Shown piece after piece: positions 31,405 to 53,868 of a stretch of 64,000 nt of DNA. The stretch is from the NCBI RefSeq assembly GCF_019656055.1, contig NZ_BPKY01000002.1, positions 124,001-188,000 of the forward strand, written 5' to 3'. Source of the stretch: Leuconostoc miyukkimchii. Lineage in GTDB: Bacteria > Bacillota > Bacilli > Lactobacillales > Lactobacillaceae. The position numbers were made by a program, and so were the translations under genes. Within the stretch, counting starts at the first letter, position 1. Each line of letters starts with the position of its first letter. Below the pieces are notes generated by a model. That model did no database searches. It was not told where the DNA came from and worked only from the letters and a program-made list of their open reading frames with translations.

Positions 31405-32286
31405 TTATTGCCATGCAGCTAATAACTCGTTAATTGTTAGCTGCCCTGGTGCGCTCATAGATGTACCATCAAGGACTGCAAATGTCATTTCAGACCCAAA
31501 ACGGTACCCTTCAATACGTGATCGACGTCCGAGATCACCCATGCTAATAGTTACCAGAGATTGACTAATAGCTGTTTGATTTGTATCATCTAAAAGTCTT
31601 TGAACATCCTGCTCATCGTTTGGTGTCACAGCTAACTTAATAATATCAGCGCCACTTTTAGCCATATCTTCTATAATTTCTGCAACATTTGGTGTCTCAT
31701 TAAAATCATGGTACGACAAAATCAGAGGAATGTTCAACGATCTAGCGACTTGGAAAATTTTATCGCGCAAGTCACTATCCAATGTATACTCAACATCAAC
31801 GGCAGTAAAATGATAGCCAGATTGTAATGCAGCTATTACAAACGTCGTATATTCCATGGGTGACATTTCACCTTTACCACCTTGTGCCTTTGTCCGATAG
31901 GTTAAAATGATTGGAAAACTACCAATTGTATTAAATAATGATCCCGTCAATTCTTTTATAATTTGGACATTCATGATTGGCCAATTGGCATTAAATTCTT
32001 GTTGCGCTGCATCCATTTCTGACATCAACTTTGCTTCCGTCATTGCCGAAACTTCCTTTTGTGCAAGTTCAGCTTGCGCGCCAGCTTTCACTTGTTGCCA
32101 CATCACTGGCCGACTAAAATCATCAGCAATATAATCAGCTCGCCACTCAACAATATCTGGATTTTGTTCCTGTAATTTTTGGGCAAAGGGTGTTATTTTA
32201 TAGTTTGGACCAAGTGTTAGAGGCACTGCAATAATAGGCTTGTGATTAATACTTTTTGGTAAATGAAACAATTCGCGTAATGTCAT
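31405..32286 (-). CDS. aroD: 3-dehydroquinate dehydratase, type I
   Basis: A 293-residue enzyme that dehydrates 3-dehydroquinate to dehydroshikimate by a Schiff base. IVEWRADYI, the catalytic His in LILSYHDFNETP and the Schiff-base Lys in IIKLAVTPN are present, as is ISMGDLGRRSRIEGYRFGSEMTFA. It is about 40 residues longer than the usual 250; the excess is a charged helical insertion around 62-100 (rich in Ala, Gln, Glu), after the first strand region. The ATG at 32286 overlaps the stop of the upstream gene (ATGA). Last gene of the aromatic operon. Confidence 0.93.
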   Translation of the reverse strand: MTLRELFHLPKSINHKPIIAVPLTLGPNYKITPFAQKLQEQNPDIVEWRADYIADDFSRPVMWQQVKAGAQAELAQKEVSAMTEAKLMSEMDAAQQEFNANWPIMNVQIIKELTGSLFNTIGSFPIILTYRTKAQGGKGEMSPMEYTTFVIAALQSGYHFTAVDVEYTLDSDLRDKIFQVARSLNIPLILSYHDFNETPNVAEIIEDMAKSGADIIKLAVTPNDEQDVQRLLDDTNQTAISQSLVTISMGDLGRRSRIEGYRFGSEMTFAVLDGTSMSAPGQLTINELLAAWQ

Positions 32287-32837
32287 TTTATTTGATAAAC
32301 GACCCAAATCATGGATGGCTTTAATTGTTGCCGTACACTGTATTTTGGATCTTCACTTTCTGGTAGTTTTATAAATTGTGTTTCTGATACAATTGTAAAC
32401 CGATTTTGATCATTTATAAAGTCTGACATTGCCACCGGTTTACTTGATACAAAACGCAACGATGGTCCCCAAGCATTATCCAAATTATGCGTCCTCAAAT
32501 AATGGCGTAATAAACCTTCTGTCGCAGCATGAATAACTGCGACATTTCGGTCAAATTCTGTATTTTCAATTAAACTTAGCGTCATTAATGGCAACGAAAA
32601 AGTGGTCACAATGTCTAATCGTTCCCATTGTAAATAATTTACATCAGTCCAATTTAACTCCGGTACTGTATTGGATTTAAAAGCAACAGGCATAATGATT
32701 TGTTCACCAATATAGTCATCTAGATGTAGCAAAATTTCTTCAAAACTCTGGTGTAAAATTAATTTTTGATGTGTTAAATAATGTTGTGCTGCCAGTTCTG
32801 AATCTGTCCCTTTTGGACCTAATGTGTGTAATTTCAT
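32283..32837 (-). CDS. Prephenate dehydratase-like protein, short and divergent
   Basis: A 184-residue protein. HTLGPKGTDSELAAQHYL (4-21) matches the N-terminal signature of the prephenate dehydratase fold, and NDQNRFTIV (142-150) aligns with the NxTRF active-site motif, but the key Thr is Asn (N145). The PIENS-type motif is replaced by MPVAFKSNTV, and there is no ACT domain. Position between the chorismate mutase fusion and aroD, with 4-base overlaps on both sides, says it acts on prephenate. It may make phenylpyruvate by a divergent enzyme, or be a BacA-like prephenate decarboxylase; I cannot decide. No other pheA is in the window. Confidence 0.7.
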   Translation of the reverse strand: MKLHTLGPKGTDSELAAQHYLTHQKLILHQSFEEILLHLDDYIGEQIIMPVAFKSNTVPELNWTDVNYLQWERLDIVTTFSLPLMTLSLIENTEFDRNVAVIHAATEGLLRHYLRTHNLDNAWGPSLRFVSSKPVAMSDFINDQNRFTIVSETQFIKLPESEDPKYSVRQQLKPSMIWVVYQIK

Positions 32838-33634
32838 CTTTTTAACTGTTTATTTTCTTTATGAATAGCAGAAGTCGTTAATATTGTCATGACATCATCA
32901 ATCATCTCATCTGTAATATCTTCTGAATGTTCAAAGTCATATTTTAATAATTCGCGCATGGTTGACATACGCGAATGCTGAACTGCATGCATCCCAAATT
33001 TTTCTTTATAGTCTGCTACCGATGATACAACCTGCATGCGTTTTTCAATGATTTGAAAAATCTGTCGATCATAAGCATCAATTTCTGATCGTAATTGTAG
33101 CAAAGCTAATTCATCTTCGTTAGAACTAAATAATGCCACAATTTCTGCAGCAATACGTTCAGGTGTTTTGCCAATAGTCTCGACTGTAAAATTCGCTACT
33201 GATTGATATTTGGGGTCACGTTGTTGCCATAAATTAAAGAACTCCGCTGCTGATTTTTCTTGTAATAATGGCCGTTGCCCTTCAAGTAGCAAACGACTAA
33301 TTGTACTCTCCAAGTTACCATGTAAATAAATGACCGTCGCTGGCGAGTCGCGCAAAATGTTGAGATTTTCATCACGTTCGATAACGCCGCCACCTGTCGC
33401 CACAACACCATTAAACATTTGCACTTTTGAAAGTACTTGTGTCTCAAGTTCACGAAAACCGTTTTCTCCTCTTTCGAGAAATATATCTGAAATACGCTGA
33501 TTGGCAATACGCTCTATTTCTAAATCAATATCTAAAAATTTTGACTGATGCTGACGTGCTATTTCTTTGCCAACCGTTGTTTTACCAGCACCCATAAAGC
33601 CAACCAGCATTAACGTTTCTGGTTCTTTAATCAT
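32834..33634 (-). CDS. Shikimate kinase fused to chorismate mutase (AroQ type)
   Basis: A 266-residue two-domain protein. Residues 1-170 are shikimate kinase: Walker A GFMGAGKTT (12-20), LDIDLEIE, FRELETQVL and ATGGGVIE (79-86), LEGQRPLL. Residues about 176-262 are an all-helical AroQ chorismate mutase: LRSEIDAYDRQIFQIIEKRMQVV then VADYKEKFG and HSRMSTMRELL. One chain thus performs steps on both sides of aroA/aroC. I start at ATG 33634 since GAGG lies 6 bases upstream; a GTG four codons earlier is inside that site. It overlaps tyrA by 8 bases. Confidence 0.92.
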   Translation of the reverse strand: MIKEPETLMLVGFMGAGKTTVGKEIARQHQSKFLDIDLEIERIANQRISDIFLERGENGFRELETQVLSKVQMFNGVVATGGGVIERDENLNILRDSPATVIYLHGNLESTISRLLLEGQRPLLQEKSAAEFFNLWQQRDPKYQSVANFTVETIGKTPERIAAEIVALFSSNEDELALLQLRSEIDAYDRQIFQIIEKRMQVVSSVADYKEKFGMHAVQHSRMSTMRELLKYDFEHSEDITDEMIDDVMTILTTSAIHKENKQLKR

Positions 33635-34487
33635 TGTGTTCCTCACTTAATAAATTTTGTCGTGATATTTGAGCTGACTGGATCAACGCTATCAGATTTG
33701 TCAGATCATTTTCAAGTAAAGTTGTATTAAACGCTTGTAACTCAGTTATAAGCGCCTGATTATTGGCTACGACACTGTCTTTATTGCTAAGTAGTATATC
33801 AGCCCATAGTTTTGGATCACTTGCTGCAATACGAGTGGTGTCTTTAAAACCACCTGCAACATAATTCCCAAATCTTTCCGAAGGACCGAGTTGTTTTACC
33901 GCAGTATTCATTAATGCAAATGCAGCAATATGAGGCACATCGCTAATGACTGCCATGAGATTATCGTGAGCAGCAACATCAATTTCTTTAAATTTTGCTT
34001 GAATTGGCGTTAAAATAGTTTTTAACCGATTTATATGGTTCATCCCTAATTTATTTGCTGTCAAAAAATAAGGTGCGCCATCGTATAAATTGCTATTTGC
34101 ATAATCAATGCCACTTTGGTGTGTCCCAGCCATGGCATGTCCGCCAATAAAAATTTGATGCCTTAGTTCTGAATTAGCAATGGCCATGATGTCACTCTTT
34201 GTTGATCCTGTATCAGTAATGATGACATCTTTTTTAAGCGACATTTTTGATAGTTCTACCATCGCTTGCTTAATGAGCGATACTGGTGTGGCTAAAATAA
34301 TCACATCAGCATTCACGGCAACATTAGCCAATGTTGTTGAAACTTGAGATACAATGTGGTGCTTCAATGCATAAACTCGTGTGGATTCAATCACATCCAC
34401 GCCAACAACGTGATTTTCCGGCTGTTGATTTAAAATTAAAGCTAACGATGCACCCATCTCACCCAGTCCTTGAATGACAATATTCAT
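33627..34487 (-). CDS. tyrA: Prephenate dehydrogenase
   Basis: A 286-residue NAD-dependent enzyme that converts prephenate to 4-hydroxyphenylpyruvate for tyrosine. N-terminal Rossmann IQGLGEMGASLALIL, then VIILATPVSLIKQAM, TDTGSTKSDIM, GGHAMAGTHQSGIDYA and the helical C-terminal dimer domain. No ACT domain, so the enzyme may be less feedback controlled than in B. subtilis. The ATG overlaps the aroA stop by 4 bases. Confidence 0.94.
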   Translation of the reverse strand: MNIVIQGLGEMGASLALILNQQPENHVVGVDVIESTRVYALKHHIVSQVSTTLANVAVNADVIILATPVSLIKQAMVELSKMSLKKDVIITDTGSTKSDIMAIANSELRHQIFIGGHAMAGTHQSGIDYANSNLYDGAPYFLTANKLGMNHINRLKTILTPIQAKFKEIDVAAHDNLMAVISDVPHIAAFALMNTAVKQLGPSERFGNYVAGGFKDTTRIAASDPKLWADILLSNKDSVVANNQALITELQAFNTTLLENDLTNLIALIQSAQISRQNLLSEEHND

Positions 34488-35779
34488 ACCATCACCCGCG
34501 ATAAATCTTCCAAAAATCCAGGATATGACACACTAATTGCATCTTCTCCAGTTAAAACAACATCGCCAGCCGTTATTAAGGCTGCTATCGCGTTCATCAT
34601 ACCAATACGGTGGTCACCATGAGAATCTAACAACGCACTTTCCTCTGGTACACGTAACGGTGTCCCACCATGAATAATCATGCCGTCAGGTAATGCGTCG
34701 ATATCCGCACCTATTTTTGTCAACTCAGATATCACCGTCGCAATACGATCAGTTTCTTTAACCCGTAATTCTTCGGCACCAGTAATCACTGTATCGCCTG
34801 TGGCCTGTGTTGCTGCCAATGCAATAATTGGCAATTCATCCACTGCACTAGGTATATCTCTTGATGTGATATTTATACCGTTTAAATTTTGTGCATGTAC
34901 CGTTATATCAGCTAAAGGTTCCCCCGACGTGGTAATCTCTGTGATCAAAATTTCTGCGCCCATTCTTTTTAATAGCTGTAATACGCCATCTCGCGTTGGG
35001 TTAATACCAACATTTTTAATTGTTAATTTTGAGTTAGGGGTAATCAGACCAGCAACAATAAAAAAGGCTGCACTGGAGATATCTGAAGGCACACTAATTT
35101 TTTGCCCAATTAATTTAGGCTGTTTAGACACTGTAATGACACCGTTTTTTGAAGTTATTTCACCACCAAATTGGCGTAGCATACGTTCTGTATGATCACG
35201 AGAAGCAATTTTTTCAATGATTTTTGTCTCACCTTCAGCCTGCATGCCTGCTAACAATATGGCACTTTTGACTTGTGCTGATGCAATAGGCATGTCATAA
35301 GTAATCCCTGATAAATGATCATTAGCGTGAATAGTGCCAGGTAAGGTTTCATTTTCAGACAAACTAATTTTAGCGCCCATTAGTGCCAGTGGTTGACGAA
35401 CACGTTTCATAGGTCTTTTACTCAACGATTGATCACCAATTAATTGCATATCAAATGGTAGGCGACTTAACAAACCCATAAGCAAGCGTGTCGATGTCCC
35501 TGAATTTCCCATGTCTAAAGGCTTTTCAGGTTTAACAAAATGATTAATACCTTGACCTGTTATGCGGACGTTGGTACCTTCATGCCAAATTTCAACACCT
35601 AAATTTTTAAAAACACCCATGGTATGTAAGACATCATCTGATGTCAAAAAATTTTCAATTTCTGTTACACCGTCAGCAATCGCACCAAACATTAATGCAC
35701 GGTGTGATATTGATTTATCACCAGGCACAGTCATAACACCACGCAAGCCATTTTTTTCAGCGTGCAATAATTTGATCAT
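34484..35779 (-). CDS. aroA: 3-phosphoshikimate 1-carboxyvinyltransferase (EPSP synthase)
   Basis: A 431-residue EPSP synthase joining shikimate-3-phosphate and PEP. PGDKSISHRALMFGAIA, LDMGNSGTSTRLLMGLL, QSLSKRPMKRVRQPL, AQVKSAILLAG and the C-terminal ELRVKETDRIA and DSHGDHRIGMMNAIA segments are all present. AAGGA lies upstream of the ATG. It is separated from aroC by 93 bases without a recognisable signal. Confidence 0.96.
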   Translation of the reverse strand: MIKLLHAEKNGLRGVMTVPGDKSISHRALMFGAIADGVTEIENFLTSDDVLHTMGVFKNLGVEIWHEGTNVRITGQGINHFVKPEKPLDMGNSGTSTRLLMGLLSRLPFDMQLIGDQSLSKRPMKRVRQPLALMGAKISLSENETLPGTIHANDHLSGITYDMPIASAQVKSAILLAGMQAEGETKIIEKIASRDHTERMLRQFGGEITSKNGVITVSKQPKLIGQKISVPSDISSAAFFIVAGLITPNSKLTIKNVGINPTRDGVLQLLKRMGAEILITEITTSGEPLADITVHAQNLNGINITSRDIPSAVDELPIIALAATQATGDTVITGAEELRVKETDRIATVISELTKIGADIDALPDGMIIHGGTPLRVPEESALLDSHGDHRIGMMNAIAALITAGDVVLTGEDAISVSYPGFLEDLSRVMV

Positions 35780-35872: not shown

Positions 35873-37051
35873 TTAAAAGTTCAAAACTTCTTCACGATAT
35901 TGCGCTACCTGTTCTTTCATTCGGTCAATATTGTCTGCATCAAATTTATCTAACACAGATTTAGCCAACTCAATTGCCACCATGGCTTCTGCAATAACAG
36001 CTGCTGCCGTAACAGCTGTTGTATCTGAGCGCTCGATGGATGCACGATGTTCCTGATGTGTATCAATATCAACAGATCTCATTGGTCGATACAATGTTGG
36101 AATCGGTTTAACAACTCCTCGCACAACGATTGCTTCACCAGTAGTCATACCACCTTCAAATCCACCTAAATTATCCGTTCCACGATAGAAACCGCGATCC
36201 TTGTCCCAAAAAATTTCATCCATAATTTGATCACCATATTTTTCAGAGTTATCAAATCCGCCACCAAACTGTACACCCTTAAAAGCATTAATACCAACAA
36301 TTGCACGTGCTATTTTGCCATCTAATTTTTCATCTGCAGACACATACGACCCTAAACCGACAGGCATCCCCGTAGCAATGACTTGCACTTGTCCACCAAC
36401 CGTATTCGCGTCCCGCTTTGTTTTATCAATGACTTCGCGAATTGCCACATCTGCTTCTGCATTTAAAGCACGCGTAGGGAAATTTTCAGTCACTTCACGT
36501 AACTCTTGCAAGTTTTTATATTTTGTTAATGTCGTTAAATCTGATTTGGCAGGGCCAACATTGACAACAAAGCCATGAACGTCAACACCAATTTCAGCTA
36601 ATAATTTTTTTGCAACAGCGCCAACCGCAACACGCATCGTTGTTTCACGTGCTGATGAGCGCTCTAGCACATTTCTTAAATCGCTTTGATGACGATATTT
36701 GATACCGCCAACTAAGTCAGCGTGACCTGGACGTGGCCGCAGAACCTTACGAAGCGTGTTCTCCGATGTTGCTGGTTCGTTAGGTGCCATAATTTTAGAC
36801 CAGCTATTATGGTCGTCATTATGCACATTTAATGTCAGTGGTGACCCTAATGTCAATTGGTGGCGAACACCTGTCAAAAATGTGACTGTATCTGTCTCAA
36901 TTTTTTGACGTTCACCTCGTCCATATGCATGTTGTCGACGAGCTAATTGCTCATTAATATCTTCTTGCGTAATATGTAACCCTGCGGGAATACCTTCAAT
37001 AACGGCAATTTCTTCTGGACCATGACTTTCACCTGCTGTTGTATATCTCAT
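35873..37051 (-). CDS. aroC: Chorismate synthase
   Basis: A 392-residue FMN-dependent chorismate synthase. RYTTAGESHGPEEIAVIEGIPAGL, RRQHAYGRGERQKIETD, RPGHADLVGGIKYRHQSDLRNVLERSSARETTMRVAVGAVAK and GGFEGGMTTGEAIVVRGVVKPIPT are the family blocks. Standard length for the Gram-positive form. A moderate site (AGAGA) precedes the ATG. The enzyme needs reduced flavin. Confidence 0.97.
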   Translation of the reverse strand: MRYTTAGESHGPEEIAVIEGIPAGLHITQEDINEQLARRQHAYGRGERQKIETDTVTFLTGVRHQLTLGSPLTLNVHNDDHNSWSKIMAPNEPATSENTLRKVLRPRPGHADLVGGIKYRHQSDLRNVLERSSARETTMRVAVGAVAKKLLAEIGVDVHGFVVNVGPAKSDLTTLTKYKNLQELREVTENFPTRALNAEADVAIREVIDKTKRDANTVGGQVQVIATGMPVGLGSYVSADEKLDGKIARAIVGINAFKGVQFGGGFDNSEKYGDQIMDEIFWDKDRGFYRGTDNLGGFEGGMTTGEAIVVRGVVKPIPTLYRPMRSVDIDTHQEHRASIERSDTTAVTAAAVIAEAMVAIELAKSVLDKFDADNIDRMKEQVAQYREEVLNF

Positions 37052-37105: not shown

Positions 37106-38167
37106 TTATCCTATAAATGTTGGCATATCATCTATTTTTTTAACCATAAGTATTGGTTTACCAACACCTTCTAAACCAACTAAATGTAACAACCCACCAT
37201 GATTTTTCTTATCATTAATTAAACGATCAAAGAAATCGGGCGTACCAATTAATTTTGATGCTGTAGGTAAACCGACAGTTTCTAATCTATCTTTTAATTC
37301 AGAAGCCATATCACTAGGTGCGATGCCATCACGGACCATACGATTAGTTATTGCCACCATTCCGATAGCAACAGCCTCACCATGTCGTAGTTCCCCGTGA
37401 GCTAGTAACTCAATTGCGTGTCCAATGGTATGGCCAAAATTAAGATACTGTCTCTGACCTGCTTCTTTTTCATCAGCCATTACGATTTTTGCTTTATACG
37501 CAATTGAACGCTTTGATAATTCCTGTGCATTTTCACGAATGTCATTGATTGATCGAATTTTCCCAGTAAAATCAAAAAATTCGCGGCTATCAAGAATAGC
37601 AGTCTTAACAACCTCACCATATCCCTCCACTAAATCACGGTCTGTCAACGTTTTGAGGTAAGTACTGTCTACCAATACTAAGTCTGGTTGGTAAAAAGTA
37701 CCGGCAATGTTTTTGGTGTGATCCAAATTAACAGCTGTTTTACCACCAACTGAAGAATCTACTTGTGCAGTGAGCGATGTTGCAATCTGGATAAAAGCAA
37801 TACCGCGCATATATAGTGAAGCCACTACACCACCTAAATCACCAATCACGCCACCACCCAAAGCAATTAAACCATCCCCACGTGTGAAACCTTCATCAGC
37901 CAATTGCGAGATAATTTGTCCAACCACTGTTAACGACTTAGACTGTTCTCCAGCAGGCACTTGTAAAGGAACAACGTTAAAGCCTGCTTGTTCAAGTTGC
38001 TTTTGCGTATCATTAAGATAAAGTGGACCAACATGACTATCTGTTAACAACGCCACCTTTCTAGATGACCAAACTGATCTGACTTCTGATCCGATTTTTT
38101 GATGCAAATCATTGCTAATTTTGACATCGTAAGCCTTTTTATCAAATGAAACATGTACAACTGACAT
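37106..38167 (-). CDS. aroB: 3-dehydroquinate synthase
   Basis: A 353-residue NAD- and metal-dependent enzyme that cyclises DAHP. VPAGEQSKSL, the NAD loop GGGVIGDLGGVVASLYMRGIAFIQIATSLTAQVDSSVGGKTAVNL, KNIAGTFYQPDLV and the metal-binding His segments LNFGHTIGHAIE and LRHGEAVAIGM are clear. AAAGGG lies upstream of the ATG, and the gene is 59 bases after the DAHP synthase gene on the minus strand. Confidence 0.97.
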   Translation of the reverse strand: MSVVHVSFDKKAYDVKISNDLHQKIGSEVRSVWSSRKVALLTDSHVGPLYLNDTQKQLEQAGFNVVPLQVPAGEQSKSLTVVGQIISQLADEGFTRGDGLIALGGGVIGDLGGVVASLYMRGIAFIQIATSLTAQVDSSVGGKTAVNLDHTKNIAGTFYQPDLVLVDSTYLKTLTDRDLVEGYGEVVKTAILDSREFFDFTGKIRSINDIRENAQELSKRSIAYKAKIVMADEKEAGQRQYLNFGHTIGHAIELLAHGELRHGEAVAIGMVAITNRMVRDGIAPSDMASELKDRLETVGLPTASKLIGTPDFFDRLINDKKNHGGLLHLVGLEGVGKPILMVKKIDDMPTFIG

Positions 38168-38226: not shown

Positions 38227-39216
38227 CTATACTATATCATGTATTTTTTTAATTTTATCAGCTAATTTTGCAAAGGCGCTTGGTGTTAAAGCTTGTGCAC
38301 CATCCACAAATGCATGCTCTGGATCATCGTGTATTTCAGTCATCAATCCTTGAGCTCCAGCAGCAGTGGCAGCTAACGCTAATGGCGCAACAAATTTTGC
38401 AACGCCAGCAGCATGTGACGCATCAGCGATAACAGGATAGTGTGTCAAACTTTTCAAAACTGGTATTGCTGATATATCAATCGTATTACGCGTATATTTA
38501 TTATCGTATGTGCGAATACCACGTTCCATCAAAATAATTTGAGTGTTGCCCCCTGCTGCAATATATTCAGCCGCGTTAAGTAAATCATCTATTGTTGCTG
38601 ACATGCCACGTTTTAAAACAACTGGTTTGCGCTTTTGCCCCAATGCCTTTAATAGCGCAAAGTTTTGCATATTCCGTGTCCCAACTTGGAATATGTCTGT
38701 ATAACTATCCACTAAATCAACATTTTTTGTATCCAAAATTTCTGTAACCATATCCATTTCAAGCACATCAGCTGCAGCACGATGTGCTTTCAATCCAACC
38801 TCGCCATTACCTTGAAAAGAGTAAGGCGACGTCCGTGGTTTAAAAGCACCGCCACGCAAAATTGTTGCACCAGCAGCCTTAACACTACGACCCATTTCAA
38901 GCACATGCGCTGAACTTTCAATAGAATCAGGACCAGCCATAAATACGAAATTATTACCACCAATTATCGCATGTTTCGTTTTGATGATGGTGTCTTCAGG
39001 ATGAAAAGCACGTGATGAAACAATTGCTTGATGATGATTTGTGATTATTTCAACAATATCTTGTGAAATTTCATTCAATATATTTTCATCAAGACTTTTA
39101 ACACCCGCCAGAGCAACCCGATTATCATGCACAAAGACTGGTTTAATTGGGTTTTTATCATCTAGCTTATTTGCAATTTTTTGTGCAGCATTGTTGCTTT
39201 TTGTAATTAAAATCAT
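38227..39216 (-). CDS. aroF: DAHP synthase, type I-beta with N-terminal regulatory domain; unusual metal-site residue
   Basis: A 329-residue 3-deoxy-7-phosphoheptulonate synthase joining PEP and E4P. Residues 1-75 are a ferredoxin-like domain of the kind that carries feedback inhibition in the Thermotoga enzyme. The barrel starts at NNFVFMAGPDSIES; LRGGAFKPRTSPYSFQG, QVGTRNMQNFALL, PVVLKRGMSAT, DASHAAG and GLMTEIHDDPEHAFVDGAQAL follow. The metal-binding Cys of GPCSVE is Asp97 here. AAGGA lies upstream of the ATG. One base separates it from aroE. Confidence 0.94.
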   Translation of the reverse strand: MILITKSNNAAQKIANKLDDKNPIKPVFVHDNRVALAGVKSLDENILNEISQDIVEIITNHHQAIVSSRAFHPEDTIIKTKHAIIGGNNFVFMAGPDSIESSAHVLEMGRSVKAAGATILRGGAFKPRTSPYSFQGNGEVGLKAHRAAADVLEMDMVTEILDTKNVDLVDSYTDIFQVGTRNMQNFALLKALGQKRKPVVLKRGMSATIDDLLNAAEYIAAGGNTQIILMERGIRTYDNKYTRNTIDISAIPVLKSLTHYPVIADASHAAGVAKFVAPLALAATAAGAQGLMTEIHDDPEHAFVDGAQALTPSAFAKLADKIKKIHDIV

Positions 39217-39217
39217 A

Positions 39218-40045
39218 TTATTTTCCTTTTATTGTTTGTCCCATTAGTTGTCGATCAGCATGACGATTGAACCAAAATTCAAAACTCAAAGCGCCCTGAC
39301 CTACCAACATCGACAAACCATTTTGTGTGAGTAGTTGATTTTTACTTGCAGATTTTAAAAGTGATGTTTGTTGATTGCGATAAATCATGTCAACAACCAT
39401 AGCATGCTGAGGTAATAACCCAACTTGATGATCCGTCAACAATGTTCTCGCATCATTCATACCAACCGTTGTTGCATTAATTAATAAATCAGCCTTACCT
39501 AATGCATCTGTTAGCGCACGATTATCTGATAGATCTGCTAATTCTCCAATACCTTGACTCAGATAAGCAATCGCTGTTTCTCTCTGAGACCAACCAACAT
39601 GTGGCCGATTAAATGCTGTCAAATGTCGTACACCATATTGTTTTGCTGTAGCAATTACTGCTCTGGCCGCACCTCCGGTACCTAAAATTACGACATTTTC
39701 ATGCGGTTGATTAGGGTTAATACTTTGCCAAAACCCGTCACCGTCCGTATTTGTTCCAATCAGCCGACCATTAAGGTTCTTAACTGTGTTAACAGCTTGA
39801 AGCCGTTGTGCCAATGGCGTTAGTTCATCAAGGTACGCTATAATGTCTGATTTAAACGGCGTAGATACATTAAATCCCCCAACGTTTAATAACTTCAAGC
39901 CCGAAATTGTAGATGCTAGATTGTCTGGTTGAACATCAAACATGTGATAATATGCATCGATGCCATATTTAGAAATCATTTTATTTTGCATAGCAGGTGA
40001 TTGCGAATGTCCTGCTGGGTGCGCTATTAAACCATAGATTGTCAT
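39218..40045 (-). CDS. aroE: Shikimate dehydrogenase
   Basis: A 275-residue NADPH enzyme reducing dehydroshikimate to shikimate. GLIAHPAGHSQSPAMQN, the catalytic Lys in GGFNVSTPFKSDII, LQAVNTVKN, GTNTDGDGF and the Rossmann loop VILGTGGAARAVIATA are seen; DLLINATTVGMN and VVDMIYRNQQTSLL follow. The ATG has GGAGAG upstream, within the last codons of tkt (2 bases apart). Confidence 0.95.
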   Translation of the reverse strand: MTIYGLIAHPAGHSQSPAMQNKMISKYGIDAYYHMFDVQPDNLASTISGLKLLNVGGFNVSTPFKSDIIAYLDELTPLAQRLQAVNTVKNLNGRLIGTNTDGDGFWQSINPNQPHENVVILGTGGAARAVIATAKQYGVRHLTAFNRPHVGWSQRETAIAYLSQGIGELADLSDNRALTDALGKADLLINATTVGMNDARTLLTDHQVGLLPQHAMVVDMIYRNQQTSLLKSASKNQLLTQNGLSMLVGQGALSFEFWFNRHADRQLMGQTIKGK

Positions 40046-40046
40046 T

Positions 40047-41981
40047 TTATCTCTCCAAATGATGTTTAATTCTTTTTACAATCGCACTTGCGTTTAAACC
40101 ATAGTGATTTAATACTGTTTGTGGTGCTGCACTCATCCCAAACTGGTCAATGCCAATAATCAATCCGCTACTACCAGCCAGTGCTTGCCAACCAAGTGTT
40201 GTTCCTGCCTCTATTATCACATTTTCTGCACCATCTTTGGGGATGATTTGCTCTTTTTCATTTTGTTTCAGAGATAAGAAACGTGCCAAATTTGGGATTG
40301 AAATGATACGATTACTCATATTTAATTGCTGACTCACTTCAACTGCGAGCTGAACTTCTGAACCAGAAGCAATTAAATTAACACGTGCACTTTTTTGTTC
40401 ATGAATTATTGTTGCACCGCGATCTATGGCCAATTTTGCCTGCTCTATACTACTATGAATGCCGATAGGACCTCGACTTAATATCAAAATGGTTGGTCGG
40501 TTTGTTGATTCTAAGGCTTGTTTCCAGGCTGCTATGATTTCTTCTACTGTCCCCGGCCGCAAAACATCAACACCTGGAATTAGGCGTAAACTCATAATTT
40601 GTTCAATCGGTTGATGCGTCGGCCCATCTTCACCTACAGTGACACTATCATGTGTAAAAACATAAATGGCAGGTACCTTTTGTAATGCGCTTAAGCGAAT
40701 AGCCGCTTTCATATAATCTGAAAAAGCGAGAAACGTCGCACCAAATATTTTTGTGCCACCATGTAATGCAATGCCATTCATAATTGTTCCCATACCAAAC
40801 TCTCGTACACCAAAAGCAATATTACGACCAACACGATTATTTTGCGTAAACAAAGAGGAGTCACTAATTTCCGCAAGTGTTGAAGCAGCCAAGTCAGCCG
40901 AGCCACCCCAGAGTTGTGATAATTGTTGTGCAAAAGATTGCAACACGATGTTTGAAATTTTACGTCCCGCTTGGATTTTATCTCCAATCATTAAGTTGGG
41001 CATTTCAATATCTTGATTTAGCATTTTTTGGTAGGCCAATATTTCAGATTCATTTGATGGCTGTTGACTTAGCAATCGCTTTTGTATACGTTGTCGCATA
41101 TCTTGTAAAATCTTCTGGTCTATTTCAAAGTTATTAATATCTACTTTTAATTTCTGTGCTAATGCCTTTAGTTGCTCTTGATTAAGTGGTGTTCCATGTG
41201 CTTTATTTGTCCCAGCATAGGGACCAAATTCCCCTATCACTGTTTTCACAGCAATCAATGTCGGCCGTGAAGATTTCTTAGCTGTTTCAATAGCATCATG
41301 AATCAACACCAGATTATTACCATCAGCGATTTCAATTGTCTGCCAGCCATAACTTTCAAAGCGCATTAAGTTATTTGATGTATCTGACCTACTCTTTTCA
41401 CCATCCAAACTAACTTGATTATCATCATATAAAACAATCAATTTAGAAAGATTTTGTTGACCTGCTAATGAGGCTACCTCATGACTCACACCCTCCATTA
41501 AATCACCATCGCTAACTAATGCAAAAGTGAAATGATCAATCACAGTTGGAAATTCATCATGAAGTTTTGCTTCTGCCATAGCCATACCAACCGCCATGCC
41601 AAATCCTTGTCCTAAAGGTCCTGTTGTCGCTTCAACACCAGGTGTGATACCAACTTCGGGATGTCCAGGTGTGATTGCGTTCGGATTCCTAAATTCAGAT
41701 AGATCATTGGATGTAATATTAAACCCAGCTGCGTATAATGTGGCATATAATAATGCTGCACCGTGTCCAGCTGACATGACAAATCGGTCACGATTGATCA
41801 TGTCAGGATTTTTTGGATCAACAATTAGCTGATTAGCATATAATTCATATAAAATCGGCGCAGTTCCCAGGGCAATGCCCGGATGCCCAGAACCAGCCTT
41901 TGAAATCATATGATTAGAAAGTAATCGTAAGTTGGCAATTGTTTCTAATGCTATGTTAGATTTTATTTGTTCTTTAATCAT
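40047..41981 (-). CDS. tkt: Transketolase heading the aromatic operon
   Basis: A 644-residue thiamine-diphosphate enzyme. SKAGSGHPGIALGTAPILYELY, SAGHGAALLYATLYAAGF, the TPP motif LVSDGDLMEGVSHEVASLAGQQNLSKLIVLYDDN, FGVREFGMGTIMNGIALHGG and HDSVTVGEDGPTHQPIEQIMSLRLIPG are family hallmarks. It should supply erythrose-4-phosphate, the partner of PEP in DAHP synthesis, which fits its place as first gene of the aro operon. It may not be the only transketolase in the genome. AGGAG lies 8 bases before the ATG, directly after the second attenuator hairpin. Confidence 0.95.
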   Translation of the reverse strand: MIKEQIKSNIALETIANLRLLSNHMISKAGSGHPGIALGTAPILYELYANQLIVDPKNPDMINRDRFVMSAGHGAALLYATLYAAGFNITSNDLSEFRNPNAITPGHPEVGITPGVEATTGPLGQGFGMAVGMAMAEAKLHDEFPTVIDHFTFALVSDGDLMEGVSHEVASLAGQQNLSKLIVLYDDNQVSLDGEKSRSDTSNNLMRFESYGWQTIEIADGNNLVLIHDAIETAKKSSRPTLIAVKTVIGEFGPYAGTNKAHGTPLNQEQLKALAQKLKVDINNFEIDQKILQDMRQRIQKRLLSQQPSNESEILAYQKMLNQDIEMPNLMIGDKIQAGRKISNIVLQSFAQQLSQLWGGSADLAASTLAEISDSSLFTQNNRVGRNIAFGVREFGMGTIMNGIALHGGTKIFGATFLAFSDYMKAAIRLSALQKVPAIYVFTHDSVTVGEDGPTHQPIEQIMSLRLIPGVDVLRPGTVEEIIAAWKQALESTNRPTILILSRGPIGIHSSIEQAKLAIDRGATIIHEQKSARVNLIASGSEVQLAVEVSQQLNMSNRIISIPNLARFLSLKQNEKEQIIPKDGAENVIIEAGTTLGWQALAGSSGLIIGIDQFGMSAAPQTVLNHYGLNASAIVKRIKHHLER

Positions 41982-41992
41982 AAATTTCTCCT

Positions 41993-42031
41993 AATAAAAA
42001 ATCGTACTAGTTGATTGCACCTAGCACGATT
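41993..42031 (-). terminator. Second leader terminator (T2) of the aromatic operon
   Basis: On the minus strand, AATCGTGCTAG / CTAGTACGATT (one G-U) with a 10-base loop GTGCAATCAA, then T6, ending only a few bases before the tkt ribosome binding site. Its 5' arm and loop resemble those of T1. Confidence 0.82.
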
Positions 42032-42054
42032 TCTTAAAACAGAGGTTTTCTGCC

Positions 42055-42095
42055 AAAATAAAAAGTCACCAAGTGATTGCATTCCACTTAGTGAC
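42055..42095 (-). terminator. First leader terminator (T1) of the aromatic operon
   Basis: On the minus strand, GTCACTAAGTG / CACTTGGTGAC (11 pairs, one G-U) with a 9-base loop GAATGCAAT, followed by TTTTTATTTT. Its 5' arm can instead pair with an upstream segment (42116-42126), so it looks conditional. Confidence 0.88.
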
Positions 42096-42109
42096 TAAAC
42101 CCTAAAAAG

Positions 42110-42177
42110 CTTCTGGTCGCTAAGTGCGTCGTTTTACCGACGCACTTAGCATGCGACGGTTCTACATAAACCAGAAG
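42110..42177 (-). promoter_or_regulatory. Attenuator control hairpin of the aromatic operon leader
   Basis: Inner stem CTAAGTGCGTCG / CGACGCACTTAG (12 perfect pairs, loop GTAAAA), a flanking GTCG/CGAC, and an outer stem CTTCTGG / CCAGAAG whose 5' arm is made of the Phe and Trp codons of the leader peptide. The 3' arm (CACTTAGCGAC) can instead pair with the 5' arm of T1 (GTCACTAAGTG) with 10 of 11 matches. This gives mutually exclusive structures as in classic amino-acid attenuators. Confidence 0.8.
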
Positions 42178-42215
42178 TAATAATAACTATTAATTTTTAA
42201 GATTTGTTTTTCCAC
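42162..42215 (-). CDS. Aromatic-rich leader peptide of the shikimate/aromatic operon
   Basis: A 17-codon frame, MEKQILKINSYYYFWFM, starting at GTG (42215) with AAGGA 10 bases upstream (42230-42226) and ending in TAG. Six of the last seven residues are Tyr, Tyr, Tyr, Phe, Trp, Phe. It lies 22 bases after the predicted transcription start and just before a set of alternative hairpins. The expected role is as a sensor: ribosomes pausing on these codons when aromatic aminoacyl-tRNA is short would alter the RNA fold. The peptide itself probably has no function. Confidence 0.8.
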   Translation of the reverse strand: MEKQILKINSYYYFWFM

Positions 42216-42243
42216 GATTTTATTATCCTTATTTGATGTATTA

Positions 42244-42272
42244 ACTATACAACTTCAAATGATAAATGTCAA
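42244..42272 (-). promoter_or_regulatory. Promoter of the aromatic operon
   Basis: On the minus strand, perfect -35 TTGACA (42272-42267), a 17-base spacer and -10 TATAGT (42249-42244). The start would be near 42237, giving a leader of about 255 bases before tkt. Confidence 0.88.
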
Positions 42273-42303
42273 CAGTGTTATTAAAATAAAATGTGATTTA
42301 CCC

Positions 42304-42849
42304 TCACTTGACATATCGACGTATAACACTATACACTATTGCAACAATATACACACCAATGATGCGATCAAAATAATCTGTACCAACCTGTACCAAAAAA
42401 ACAGAAGCAACTTGATTCAAGCCTAATCCGTGCAGTACTTGCACAATCATACTCGAACCAGATGACGTAATACCATGAAATAAAATAACAGTGATCACCG
42501 TACTAACAATTGTAGCCGGTACAGAGATAACTAACGCCCACCACCAAATTTTTTTGACTTCTGTGGCCCTGACTTTTTTATATACTAAACCAGACACTAG
42601 CGCTGTTGTTATTTGACTAGGCATGAAATAAATTGAAAAAAGATCCCCAGTGGTACCATTAATAATTGCTGTTAGAACACCTGTAATAATGCCACCAATT
42701 GGTCCAAAAATGGCACTGCCAAGCAAAGTACCAACTGTATCTAAATAAATAGGTAAACGTGCGTAAAGGGCAATATGACCACCAACAATATTAATGACTA
42801 TAAATAGTGCCGTTAACGCAATTTTTTGAGATGACACATATTTTTTCAT
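42304..42849 (-). CDS. ECF transporter S component, probable queuosine/7-deazaguanine precursor uptake
   Basis: A 181-residue membrane protein with about six hydrophobic helices, of the size and type of substrate-binding (S) subunits of energy-coupling-factor vitamin transporters: LFIVINIVGGHIALYARLPIYLDTVGTLLGSAIFGPIGGIITGVLTAIINGTTGD. The shared ECF ATPases and T subunit are not in the window. It is translationally coupled (ATGA) to the nucleoside-hydrolase gene and lies in a transcript with a preQ1-type riboswitch, so I infer a queuosine-related substrate (a QrtT-like role). Without that context only ECF S component could be said. Confidence 0.8.
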   Translation of the reverse strand: MKKYVSSQKIALTALFIVINIVGGHIALYARLPIYLDTVGTLLGSAIFGPIGGIITGVLTAIINGTTGDLFSIYFMPSQITTALVSGLVYKKVRATEVKKIWWWALVISVPATIVSTVITVILFHGITSSGSSMIVQVLHGLGLNQVASVFLVQVGTDYFDRIIGVYIVAIVYSVIRRYVK

Positions 42850-53028: not shown

Positions 53029-53616
53029 TTAAGATGTCAATTTATTTTGTAGTGGCTTTAACATTGATAACACAATAAGGCTAATACCACCCCAAACGAT
53101 ACCTTGTATGAGATTAAATGGTAAAACCATGGCAATAAAATATCGACCCAAACCGATAATATTTGCAATATCAAAATGTGCAAATTTAGCATATAATGGC
53201 ACCGCAATAAACCAATTCATTAAAATGGCAGCACCTGTCATTCCAATTGTTGCCACGCTAACTGCCAACAAACTTCTGCCAATATTTTTAGTTGTGAAAT
53301 ACGGCATAATCCAAAACAAAATCAAAGAAAAAACAATCACAGCTATTAAATTAACAGGCAATCCCAGGTAAGTATTAATACCCTCATTTGCTAATATTAA
53401 TTTGAGTATTGTTCGTAAAACAACTGTCCACATCGCAGCAGAAACGCTAATCCAATAGCCAGCAAGGATCACCGGAATAATTGAAAAATCCAAATTCAAA
53501 AAACTAGCTCCTGGAATAATTGGTACTTGTGGAAATAACATTAAACCAAACGATATCGCGCTCAATATCGCAACTAGGGTTAATGTTTGTGTGCGCGTTA
53601 CTTTAGAAATAGACAT
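53029..53616 (-). CDS. ribU: Riboflavin ECF transporter S component RibU
   Basis: A 195-residue membrane protein with about six helices; RibU binds riboflavin for uptake by the shared ECF module. LVAILSAISFGLMLFPQVPIIPGASFLNLDFSIIPVILAGYW and GIVWGGISLIVL-type segments are typical. I start at ATG 53616, with GAGG 6 bases upstream; the longer frame would read through the riboswitch. The FMN riboswitch in front confirms the substrate. Confidence 0.94.
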   Translation of the reverse strand: MSISKVTRTQTLTLVAILSAISFGLMLFPQVPIIPGASFLNLDFSIIPVILAGYWISVSAAMWTVVLRTILKLILANEGINTYLGLPVNLIAVIVFSLILFWIMPYFTTKNIGRSLLAVSVATIGMTGAAILMNWFIAVPLYAKFAHFDIANIIGLGRYFIAMVLPFNLIQGIVWGGISLIVLSMLKPLQNKLTS

Positions 53617-53626
53617 ATTTGGCCTC

Positions 53627-53668
53627 AAAAAAACTGCGCAATTTGTCAGGGTATCACAAAAAGGCAGT
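53627..53668 (-). terminator. Conditional terminator of the FMN riboswitch
   Basis: On the minus strand, ACTGC / GCAGT with an inner TTTGT/ACAAA stem, followed by T7, between the FMN aptamer and ribU. It is the expected expression platform: FMN binding should favour termination. Confidence 0.75.
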
Positions 53669-53687
53669 CTTAACTTTCTTTTTTTAA

Positions 53688-53814
53688 CTTCTTTATACCC
53701 GACTTTACGGTCGGCTCCGGATTTTGACCAGATCAACTGCTTTCGCAGGTCGCGGGCTTACCATATCATGTATGTCTCACCGCCGGTTGGGAATTACACC
53801 CGACCCTGAAGTAT
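53688..53814 (-). ncRNA. FMN riboswitch (RFN element)
   Basis: The conserved blocks appear in order on the minus strand: CTTCAGGGTCGGGTG, AATTCCC, ACCGGCGGT, AGCCCGCGA, TGATCTGGT, TCCGGAGCCGACCGT, AGTCGGGT and a closing AAGAAG. It precedes ribU. Binding of FMN should shut off riboflavin uptake. Confidence 0.97.
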
Positions 53815-53868
53815 ATTCAATTGTACTTGAATCTCATCTTACCAAAAATAGAAATTAAAAACAACTAC

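Follow-up and report, generated by a model that had tools for sequence, protein, structure and literature searches.

The window (the whole stretch of DNA that was analysed, 64,000 nucleotides) carries an operon of ten genes, all facing the same way and either overlapping or separated by no more than 93 bases, that opens with tkt and continues through the common aromatic pathway:

40047-41981, minus strand: tkt, transketolase, the first gene (TIGR00232)
39218-40045, minus strand: aroE (shikimate dehydrogenase models, the best of them under their cut-offs)
38227-39216, minus strand: DAHP synthase (TIGR01361)
37106-38167, minus strand: aroB (TIGR01357)
35873-37051, minus strand: aroC (TIGR00033)
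34484-35779, minus strand: aroA (TIGR01356)
33627-34487, minus strand: tyrA, prephenate dehydrogenase (models under their cut-offs)
32834-33646, minus strand: shikimate kinase fused to a type II chorismate mutase (Pfam SKI and CM_2)
32283-32837, minus strand: unrecognised 184-residue protein at the place expected for pheA
31405-32307, minus strand: aroD (TIGR01093)

The 184-residue protein (32283-32837) has no match in NCBIfam at 1e-8, Pfam at 0.01 or PHROGs at 0.1, and matches the PDB only at E 0.88. Its start, GPKGTDSELAA, resembles by eye that of prephenate dehydratase, so that it may be a strongly diverged or decayed PheA. A terminator scan 3' of aroD returned one minus-strand site, at 31083-31065.

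The leader locus lies on the minus strand between an ECF-transporter gene and tkt, which starts at 41981:

42304-42849, minus strand: ECF-transporter gene upstream of the leader, on the same strand (Pfam PF12822)
42244-42272, minus strand: promoter TTGACA - 17 nt - TATAGT, matching 11 of 12 consensus positions
42162-42215, minus strand: leader peptide frame of 17 codons, GTG start and TAG stop, MEKQILKINSYYYFWFM, with AAGGA upstream (open reading frame and alignment)

The first-pass annotation had placed here a consensus promoter followed by a GTG-started frame of 17 codons with its own AAGGA site, ending in YYYFWFM, and both were recovered (TTGACA-17-TATAGT at 42272-42244 and the frame at 42215-42162, minus strand). 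A consensus scan of a 1001-base stretch gives eight promoter-like sites where 4.0 are expected by chance, so the case for the promoter rests on conservation: its TTGACA is invariant in 16 of 16 aligned leaders. The GTG start of the frame aligns with ATG in other species. As expected of an attenuator, a short frame with a ribosome site and a start codon is present between promoter and tkt, and its codon run YYYFWF, kept in kind across genera, spells out the end products of the tkt-aro pathway. In the leader no match to an Rfam family attains the gathering score; at E values up to 5, seven matches fall in 41900-42350, all far under their gathering scores, the best being CTV_rep_sig (E 0.037, 14 of 100 bits).

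The predicted fold of the leader RNA (42235-42050) has an energy of -61.5 kcal/mol, where shuffled sequences average -34.6 (z -7.3). It contains a chain of mutually exclusive folds, I / P / P3:M5 / M / M3:T5 / T, made from the following elements:

42171-42177, minus strand: segment a, CTTCTGG, within the Tyr-Phe-Trp codons, pairs with a'
42110-42116, minus strand: segment a', CCAGAAG followed by a T-rich stretch, pairs with a
42136-42160, minus strand: early hairpin I (segments 1:3), starting at the second base past the stop codon (fold and native-versus-swapped test)
42116-42157, minus strand: large hairpin P (segments 2:4), 13 + 3 pairs, which excludes hairpin I (fold and native-versus-swapped test)
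42116-42126, minus strand: P3, the 3' arm of P, which can pair with M5 (42095-42085) at 10 of 11 positions with one A.C mismatch
42064-42096, minus strand: hairpin M with a U tract, terminator-like (terminator scan, folds and pairing tests)
42064-42076, minus strand: M3, the 3' arm of M, which can pair with T5 (about 42027-42018) (native-versus-swapped test)
41993-42032, minus strand: second terminator T (hairpin 42032-41999 and a T tract), directly before the tkt ribosome site (fold)

The 12-pair hairpin proposed at first, GCTAAGTGCGTC:GACGCACTTAGC, is present, and its outer stem a:a' joins CTTCTGG (42177-42171), which sits in the Tyr-Phe-Trp codons, to CCAGAAG (42116-42110). The intrinsic terminator proposed with it stands as the hairpin 42096-42064 with its U tract, although not as the only terminator: it is the middle hairpin M, and T follows before tkt. 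T was seen in the folds and in 16 of 16 aligned leaders; the consensus scan did not pick it up. The arms of M and T are alike, as if one hairpin arose from the other, and their loop regions (42081-42074 in M and 42019-42012 in T, minus strand) hold the identical octamer TGCAATCA.

Within Leuconostoc, a YYYFWFM-type frame lies upstream of tkt in 17 of 19 genomes (tkt itself was found in 18), reading YYYFWFM in 16 of the 17 and YFYFWFM in L018; leaders L020 and L021 belong to one fragmented genome. Of the remaining genomes, G015 is without a tkt match and has a variant frame, MNKNSLKNNNYFYFWFI, before aroE, and in G003 the contig starts only within the tkt match, with no copy of the leader pattern in the assembly. 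Across 16 aligned leaders the columns TAC-TTC-TGG-TTT-ATG-TA and the CCGTCGC past the stop codon are invariant, third codon positions included, and the 3' arm of the large hairpin and the 5' arm of the middle hairpin are nearly all invariant, even though the transketolases of the genus are only 64-71% identical to that of the window. Native 1:3 pairing would explain the invariant second G of GTCGG in Leuconostoc, which P leaves unused.

Leaders of this type stand before aromatic-pathway genes in ten genera of the family and before an aminotransferase in an eleventh, with two looser cases in addition. The 46 leaders examined (39, and 7 found later) come from 12 genera within the family and one outside it, in another family; one of the 12 and the outside genus are represented by the looser cases L143 and L142. 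A strict pattern matched 20 of 397 family genomes, in three genera, and its reversed control had no match in the table. A scan of named genomes gave 14 stretches, from ten Leuconostoc, two Convivina, one Lactobacillaceae MAG and one Bacteroidales genome; the last (L046) was rejected as a chance match because it lies inside a coding frame. A loose pattern matched 183 of the 397 genomes; its reversed control also matches in many, so that a loose match alone means nothing. We therefore read the loose matches at 30 loci and in 20 stretches, of which 49 gave short frames, and kept a frame where an aromatic-type gene or an aminotransferase lay downstream (11 kept, 38 dropped). Seven further loose-pattern picks were all kept, and the tally of leaders, taken from the matches listed, is to be read as 'at least'.

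RNA models were searched as well. Model R1, run on 395 genomes of the order at E<=0.01, matched 12, of which seven are leaders; the matches in G142, G400, G456, G505 and G676 were dropped, no aromatic frame being seen there. Model R2, built from 12 leaders with no Leuconostoc among them, matched 13 of 385 genomes (11 clear and two looser, L142 and L143), recovered the leader of the window at E 1.7e-5 and added two genera with a leader before tkt (FYYYWFLQ and FYYYWFIQ). R1 misses G031, where R2 finds a leader, and the spread is thus a lower bound. A plasmid search returned, among the 20 matches listed, the tkt coding sequence only.

The genes downstream vary. In genera other than Leuconostoc we found the frames MQQFNNSNLNSYYYYWFRK before aroE, MTKSTRYYYYWFI before aroC, MAKINRKINRFYYYWFW before DAHP synthase and MTINTNLQLNSYYYYWFT before tkt, and frames ending in YYYFWFFHKHL or YFYFWFFHKHL before a class I/II aminotransferase. 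Pfam confirms the DAHP synthase at L106, the transketolase at L107 and the aminotransferase at L070; the others were named by reading translations. The looser cases both precede transporters and are without a Trp codon, which is kept in 44 of the 46 leaders. L142, from another family of the order, has the leader MINSILLPLSSFYYGYFR (FYYGYF; near 1500 on its minus strand), which keeps the pairing plan and precedes a TrpX-like ABC binding protein (308.7 bits, under the model cut-off of 390). In L143 the leader YYFGYF (from about 1469) precedes a PTS_EIIC_2 membrane protein, which hints at a link of that protein to aromatic amino acids.

The pairing plan is retained across these leaders with changed letters. 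Of 39 leaders, drawn from nine genera, 38 have the outer stem a:a' paired at each of its seven positions (counting G-U), a' being seven bases that lie 23 to 58 nt past a; in the exception, L101, one position is mismatched. Where codons change, the other arm changes to match (CTTCTGG:CCAGAAG, CTATTGG:CCAATAG, CTACTGG:CCAGTAG, TTACTGG:CCAGTAA and CTTTTGG:CCAAAAG). Hairpins M and T are both in the minimum-energy fold of 21 of 23 leaders, with M missing in L067 and T missing in L022.

To compare the alternative pairings, each segment was paired with its own partner and with the partners of other leaders, over 20,000 permutations. Native pairing was stronger than swapped pairing for P3:M5 (mean -14.2 against a cross-genus -9.4 kcal/mol, p<5e-5, 14 leaders; p=0.00025 in an earlier run of 12), M3:T5 (-12.0 against -7.0 kcal/mol, p<5e-5, 14 leaders), 1:3 (-15.0 against -8.5, p<5e-5, 16 leaders) and 2:4 (-23.5 against -12.2, p<5e-5, 16 leaders). 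These tests treat related leaders as exchangeable, and the arms of M and T were set by eye from the folds; the safeguard is pairing between non-partners, which gave p=0.08 for P3:T5 and p=0.22 for M5:T3 (14 leaders), and p=0.99 for 1:4 (16 leaders). By this comparison, terminator and antiterminator are mutually exclusive, and two successive alternative pairings, P3:M5 and M3:T5, stand between the first stem and the terminator, as in a his-type relay.

The pairing of 42126-42116 with 42095-42085, claimed at first for 10 of 11 positions, is there with its one A.C mismatch. On its own it is within chance in the window, where 8% of shuffled partners do equally well, and it is the comparison across genera that carries it. 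Among 12 leaders subjected to the shuffle test of P3:M5, eight fell below 0.05 and four above it, namely the window (0.083), L041 (0.09), L120 (0.11) and L067 (0.77). In seven of seven later-found leaders, M5 is what P3 pairs with best within the 60 nt after it, and the fractions of shuffles as good are 0.038, 0.232, 0.028, 0.016, 0.342, 0.042 and 0.004 (five of seven below 0.05). P3:M5 is broken at the same relative place in 11 of 14 leaders, with A opposite C in eight of these; it has two mismatches in Convivina and is poor in L067.

As long as segment 4 has yet to be made, hairpin I forms in each of the 25 non-g13 leaders folded (-10.9 to -17.5 kcal/mol; L106 was left out, and the three g13 leaders, all of one genus, have no such stretch). 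Its first base falls inside the stop codon or at most three bases past it in these 25 leaders, and once segment 4 is made, 2:4 (P) replaces hairpin I in that fold. A two-state model in which P competes with M only is kept as one link and rejected as a complete account: from the aromatic codons a ribosome falls short of the inner stem of the large hairpin, and the leaders also keep hairpin I, M3:T5 and the second terminator. The first-pass annotation had named loss of the aromatic codons or of the alternative pairing in relatives as the result that would count against it. That loss was looked for and did not occur: peptide, outer stem and P3:M5 are kept within the genus and, in other letters, in other genera.

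We read the leader as a ribosome-mediated transcription attenuator for the common aromatic pathway with a his-type layout, and put the probability of this reading at roughly 0.8, on the strength of comparative and folding analyses. At the level of sequence, the comparisons establish its anatomy, its conservation and the joint maintenance of its mutually exclusive pairings; from these we infer that it responds to all three of Tyr, Phe and Trp and controls all ten genes. A ribosome would translate the short frame while RNA polymerase makes the leader. When charged Tyr, Phe or Trp tRNA is short, it would stall on UAU-UAU-UAC-UUC-UGG-UUU, and with its A site on the third Tyr to Trp codons it would cover segment a and leave segment 1 free. 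Hairpin I (1:3) would then form first and keep segment 2 off segment 4; free segment 4 (P3) would take M5 and so block M, and M3 would pair with T5, so that terminator T fails too and the operon is transcribed. When the amino acids are ample, the ribosome would reach the stop codon and cover segment 1, allowing P (2:4), M and T to form and transcription to end. Without translation the outer stem a:a' would close over the first hairpin, and transcription should likewise end. The original idea of a leader-peptide attenuator is supported by the conserved peptide, the outer stem and P3:M5, and is extended here to a relay that includes I and T.

Part of the same conservation could reflect nascent-peptide arrest of the TnaC kind, in which the peptide itself, on binding of a free aromatic amino acid, arrests its ribosome and the arrested ribosome determines the fold. 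The constancy of YYYFWFM in 16 of the 17 genus leaders upstream of tkt (YFYFWFM in L018) and of Trp in 44 of 46 leaders would suit such a peptide. However, the peptide ends differ across genera (FHKHL, RK, LQ, IQ, T, V, G or M after WF) and the core itself varies (YFYFWF, FYYYWF, FSYYWS, YYFWS, FYYGYF), whereas the aromatic codon run and the RNA pairing are kept. Arrest by a plentiful amino acid would also have to give termination. We regard arrest of this kind as improbable.

The attenuator that we favour was also examined by masked equilibrium folding, with an assumed ribosome footprint reaching 11 nt past the first base of the A-site codon, in the leader of the window and nine others (values at two transcript lengths) and in three g13 leaders. 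In the window at equilibrium, P, M and T form whatever the ribosome state: P3:M5 reaches 0.07-0.17 with the ribosome stalled (0.12 for the Trp stall), 0.07 at the stop codon and 0.00 without a ribosome, and T is at least 0.92, so that equilibrium folding did not show the switch in this leader. With M5 made, P3:M5 exceeds 0.3 in some stalled state in three of ten leaders (L101, L062 and L107). In L107 the third-Tyr stall (0.37) lies above the stop state (0.19), whereas the first-Tyr (0.06) and Trp (0.09) stalls lie below it.

In the three g13 leaders the frame runs through P and stops inside P3. With T5 made, P3:M5 is 0.77-1.00 in every stalled state and 0.00 at the stop codon in all three; without a ribosome it is 0.06, 0.09 and, in L073, 1.00. 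M3:T5 is 0.30-0.84 in the stalled states against 0.71 (L070), 0.04 (L071) and 0.60 (L073) at the stop codon, so that this second link is cleanly switched in L071 only; in L070, M wins (0.91-0.99) once M3 is made. As an energy check on the alternative states, which had been proposed at the outset, these values favour the first link in all three g13 leaders and do not support it in the window at equilibrium. The direction of the switch, from stall to read-through, follows classical logic and is supported in part by these computations.

The full-length RNA forms T in every state of 13 of 13 leaders (0.65-0.98), so that read-through must be kinetic. Barriers were estimated with findpath, a heuristic that ignores pseudoknots and gives upper bounds: 8.8-14.8 kcal/mol for I to P (14 leaders) and, in 13 leaders (L106 and L067 left out), 8.6-19.0 kcal/mol for P3:M5 to M and 7.5-13.5 kcal/mol for M3:T5 to T. 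In the window the barriers against leaving the read-through path are 9.7, 10.0 and 11.3 kcal/mol, giving lifetimes of about 7, 11 and 92 seconds if the prefactor is taken as 1e6 per second; transcription from segment 4 to the end of T (116 nt) takes about 3 seconds at an assumed 40 nt per second. With a prefactor of 1e7 the first of the window lifetimes drops below 1 second, and with 1e6 the last lifetime is below 1 second in L070, L101 and L117. Under these assumptions, kinetic trapping of the read-through folds in the window is possible.

Because the window at equilibrium barely separates the Trp stall (P3:M5 0.12) from the stop state (0.07), and L107 even places the stop state (0.19) above the first-Tyr and Trp stalls (0.06 and 0.09), the same parts might work with the opposite sign, a ribosome parked at the stop codon freeing P3 and giving read-through. 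This we judge no more probable than peptide arrest. Hairpin I starts at the stop codon or at most three bases past it in 25 non-g13 leaders, where a ribosome would block I and favour P; P3:M5 in the g13 leaders has the classical sign; and it would be odd for abundance to turn on a biosynthetic operon.

In most leaders folded, M and T form at equilibrium whatever the ribosome state, and an upstream gene (42304-42849) lies on the same strand, as might be expected of constitutive partial terminators that set a level or stop read-through from that gene, with the leader frame incidental. The leader has its own conserved promoter, however, and the frame, the aromatic codons and four alternative pairings are kept across genera, which makes this account somewhat less probable again than a switch of opposite sign. 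A T-box, TRAP or metabolite riboswitch, elements common for these genes in Firmicutes, is the least credible alternative by some way: the genome holds 27 T-box matches, but none of the 27 is in the window, and no Rfam match in the leader attains its gathering score.

The T-box matches of this genome (RF00230, 10 of the 27 above cut-off) bear on a second part of the pathway. About 80 bases separate the end of one of them (74 bits, under the cut-off) from the downstream trpB of a trpB-D-C-F-A-E-G cluster (L144, G000:C1:394500-401500), in which trpB was named by model, trpE by a chorismate-binding match and the others from reading translations. With this T-box before the trp cluster and the leader before tkt, the common pathway appears to be run by a leader peptide and the trp branch by a T-box, which would place two different RNA regulators within one pathway of one genome. 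Elsewhere in the window, an FMN riboswitch (53682-53817, minus strand, 99 bits) lies before a membrane-protein frame (53029-53736); as a guess, that frame is perhaps a riboflavin transporter subunit.

At slightly better than even odds, we see in these leaders a hitherto undescribed regulon for aromatic amino acids, run by leader peptides and spread across the Lactobacillaceae, possibly reaching one further family of the order. One leader would pool the supply of Tyr, Phe and Trp by way of six folds in relay, each of which excludes the one after it; the hairpin at the stop codon would be the first switch, distinguishing stalled from finished translation, and the signal would be carried about 113-150 nt to a distant terminator. 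In one genome the common pathway would be under this device and the trp branch under a T-box, and elsewhere the device would also front an aminotransferase and transporters. Our literature search, with subscription journals mostly outside its coverage, recognised no description of this leader, and the aromatic leader with its hairpin relay seems undescribed; a 2003 comparative paper, reportedly on aromatic regulation in low-GC Gram-positives, could describe such a leader.

Lactic acid bacteria are usually credited with T-boxes for their amino-acid genes, and the attenuator proposed here would put classical ribosome-mediated attenuation at the head of their aromatic pathway. If this is true, one short peptide would serve to pool all three amino acids. 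With the pairing plan kept under changed letters, compensatory mutations can test every link of the relay, and the T-box before the trp genes of the same genome allows a side-by-side comparison. The leader also gives a means of searching for aromatic regulons when food and gut bacteria are annotated.

In the enterobacterial his operon attenuator, the pairings A:B, C:D and E:F alternate with B:C and D:E. The leader described here resembles it in being a chain of alternately pairing segments from leader peptide to intrinsic terminator, which a stall on the control codons would shift by one. Unlike the his attenuator, it has control codons for three amino acids, serves another operon in another phylum, and has at its stop codon an extra hairpin in competition with the first stem. 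With the E. coli trp and pheA leaders it shares aromatic control codons in the first stem, and here as there the position of the ribosome would decide on the terminator; those leaders, however, each serve a single amino acid and a terminal branch with fewer switches, whereas the present one heads the common pathway. At the outset, leader-peptide attenuation had been taken as typical of Proteobacteria, and T-boxes or TRAP as the usual control of such operons in Firmicutes. The absence of a T-box from the leader held, but leader-peptide attenuation has already been proposed in Firmicutes (PMC9413887, PMC2965389, PMC8632094). Leaders for trp and ilv genes are also described in Actinobacteria (PMC1262725), and in 2010 the authors of another paper stated that they knew of no shown leader-peptide attenuation outside Proteobacteria and Actinobacteria except ermC (PMC2965389). 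For his genes of Firmicutes, such attenuation in place of a T-box or repressor is proposed; these leaders differ from ours in serving histidine genes and in the taxa concerned, namely bacilli, the B. cereus group, some Eubacteriales and Erysipelotrichales (PMC9413887, PMC2965389). The closest likeness in pathway is the uORFC-13-1 motif, proposed before aroF in Acholeplasma as a Phe-codon uORF with a terminator, which shares with our leader a frame with one or more Phe codons and a terminator before DAHP synthase; it covers Acholeplasma and environmental sequences only (24) with at least one Phe codon, and the accessible text of its description mentions neither a Tyr/Trp run nor a relay (PMC8632094), whereas the leader described here joins Tyr, Phe and Trp codons to a relay of six folds.
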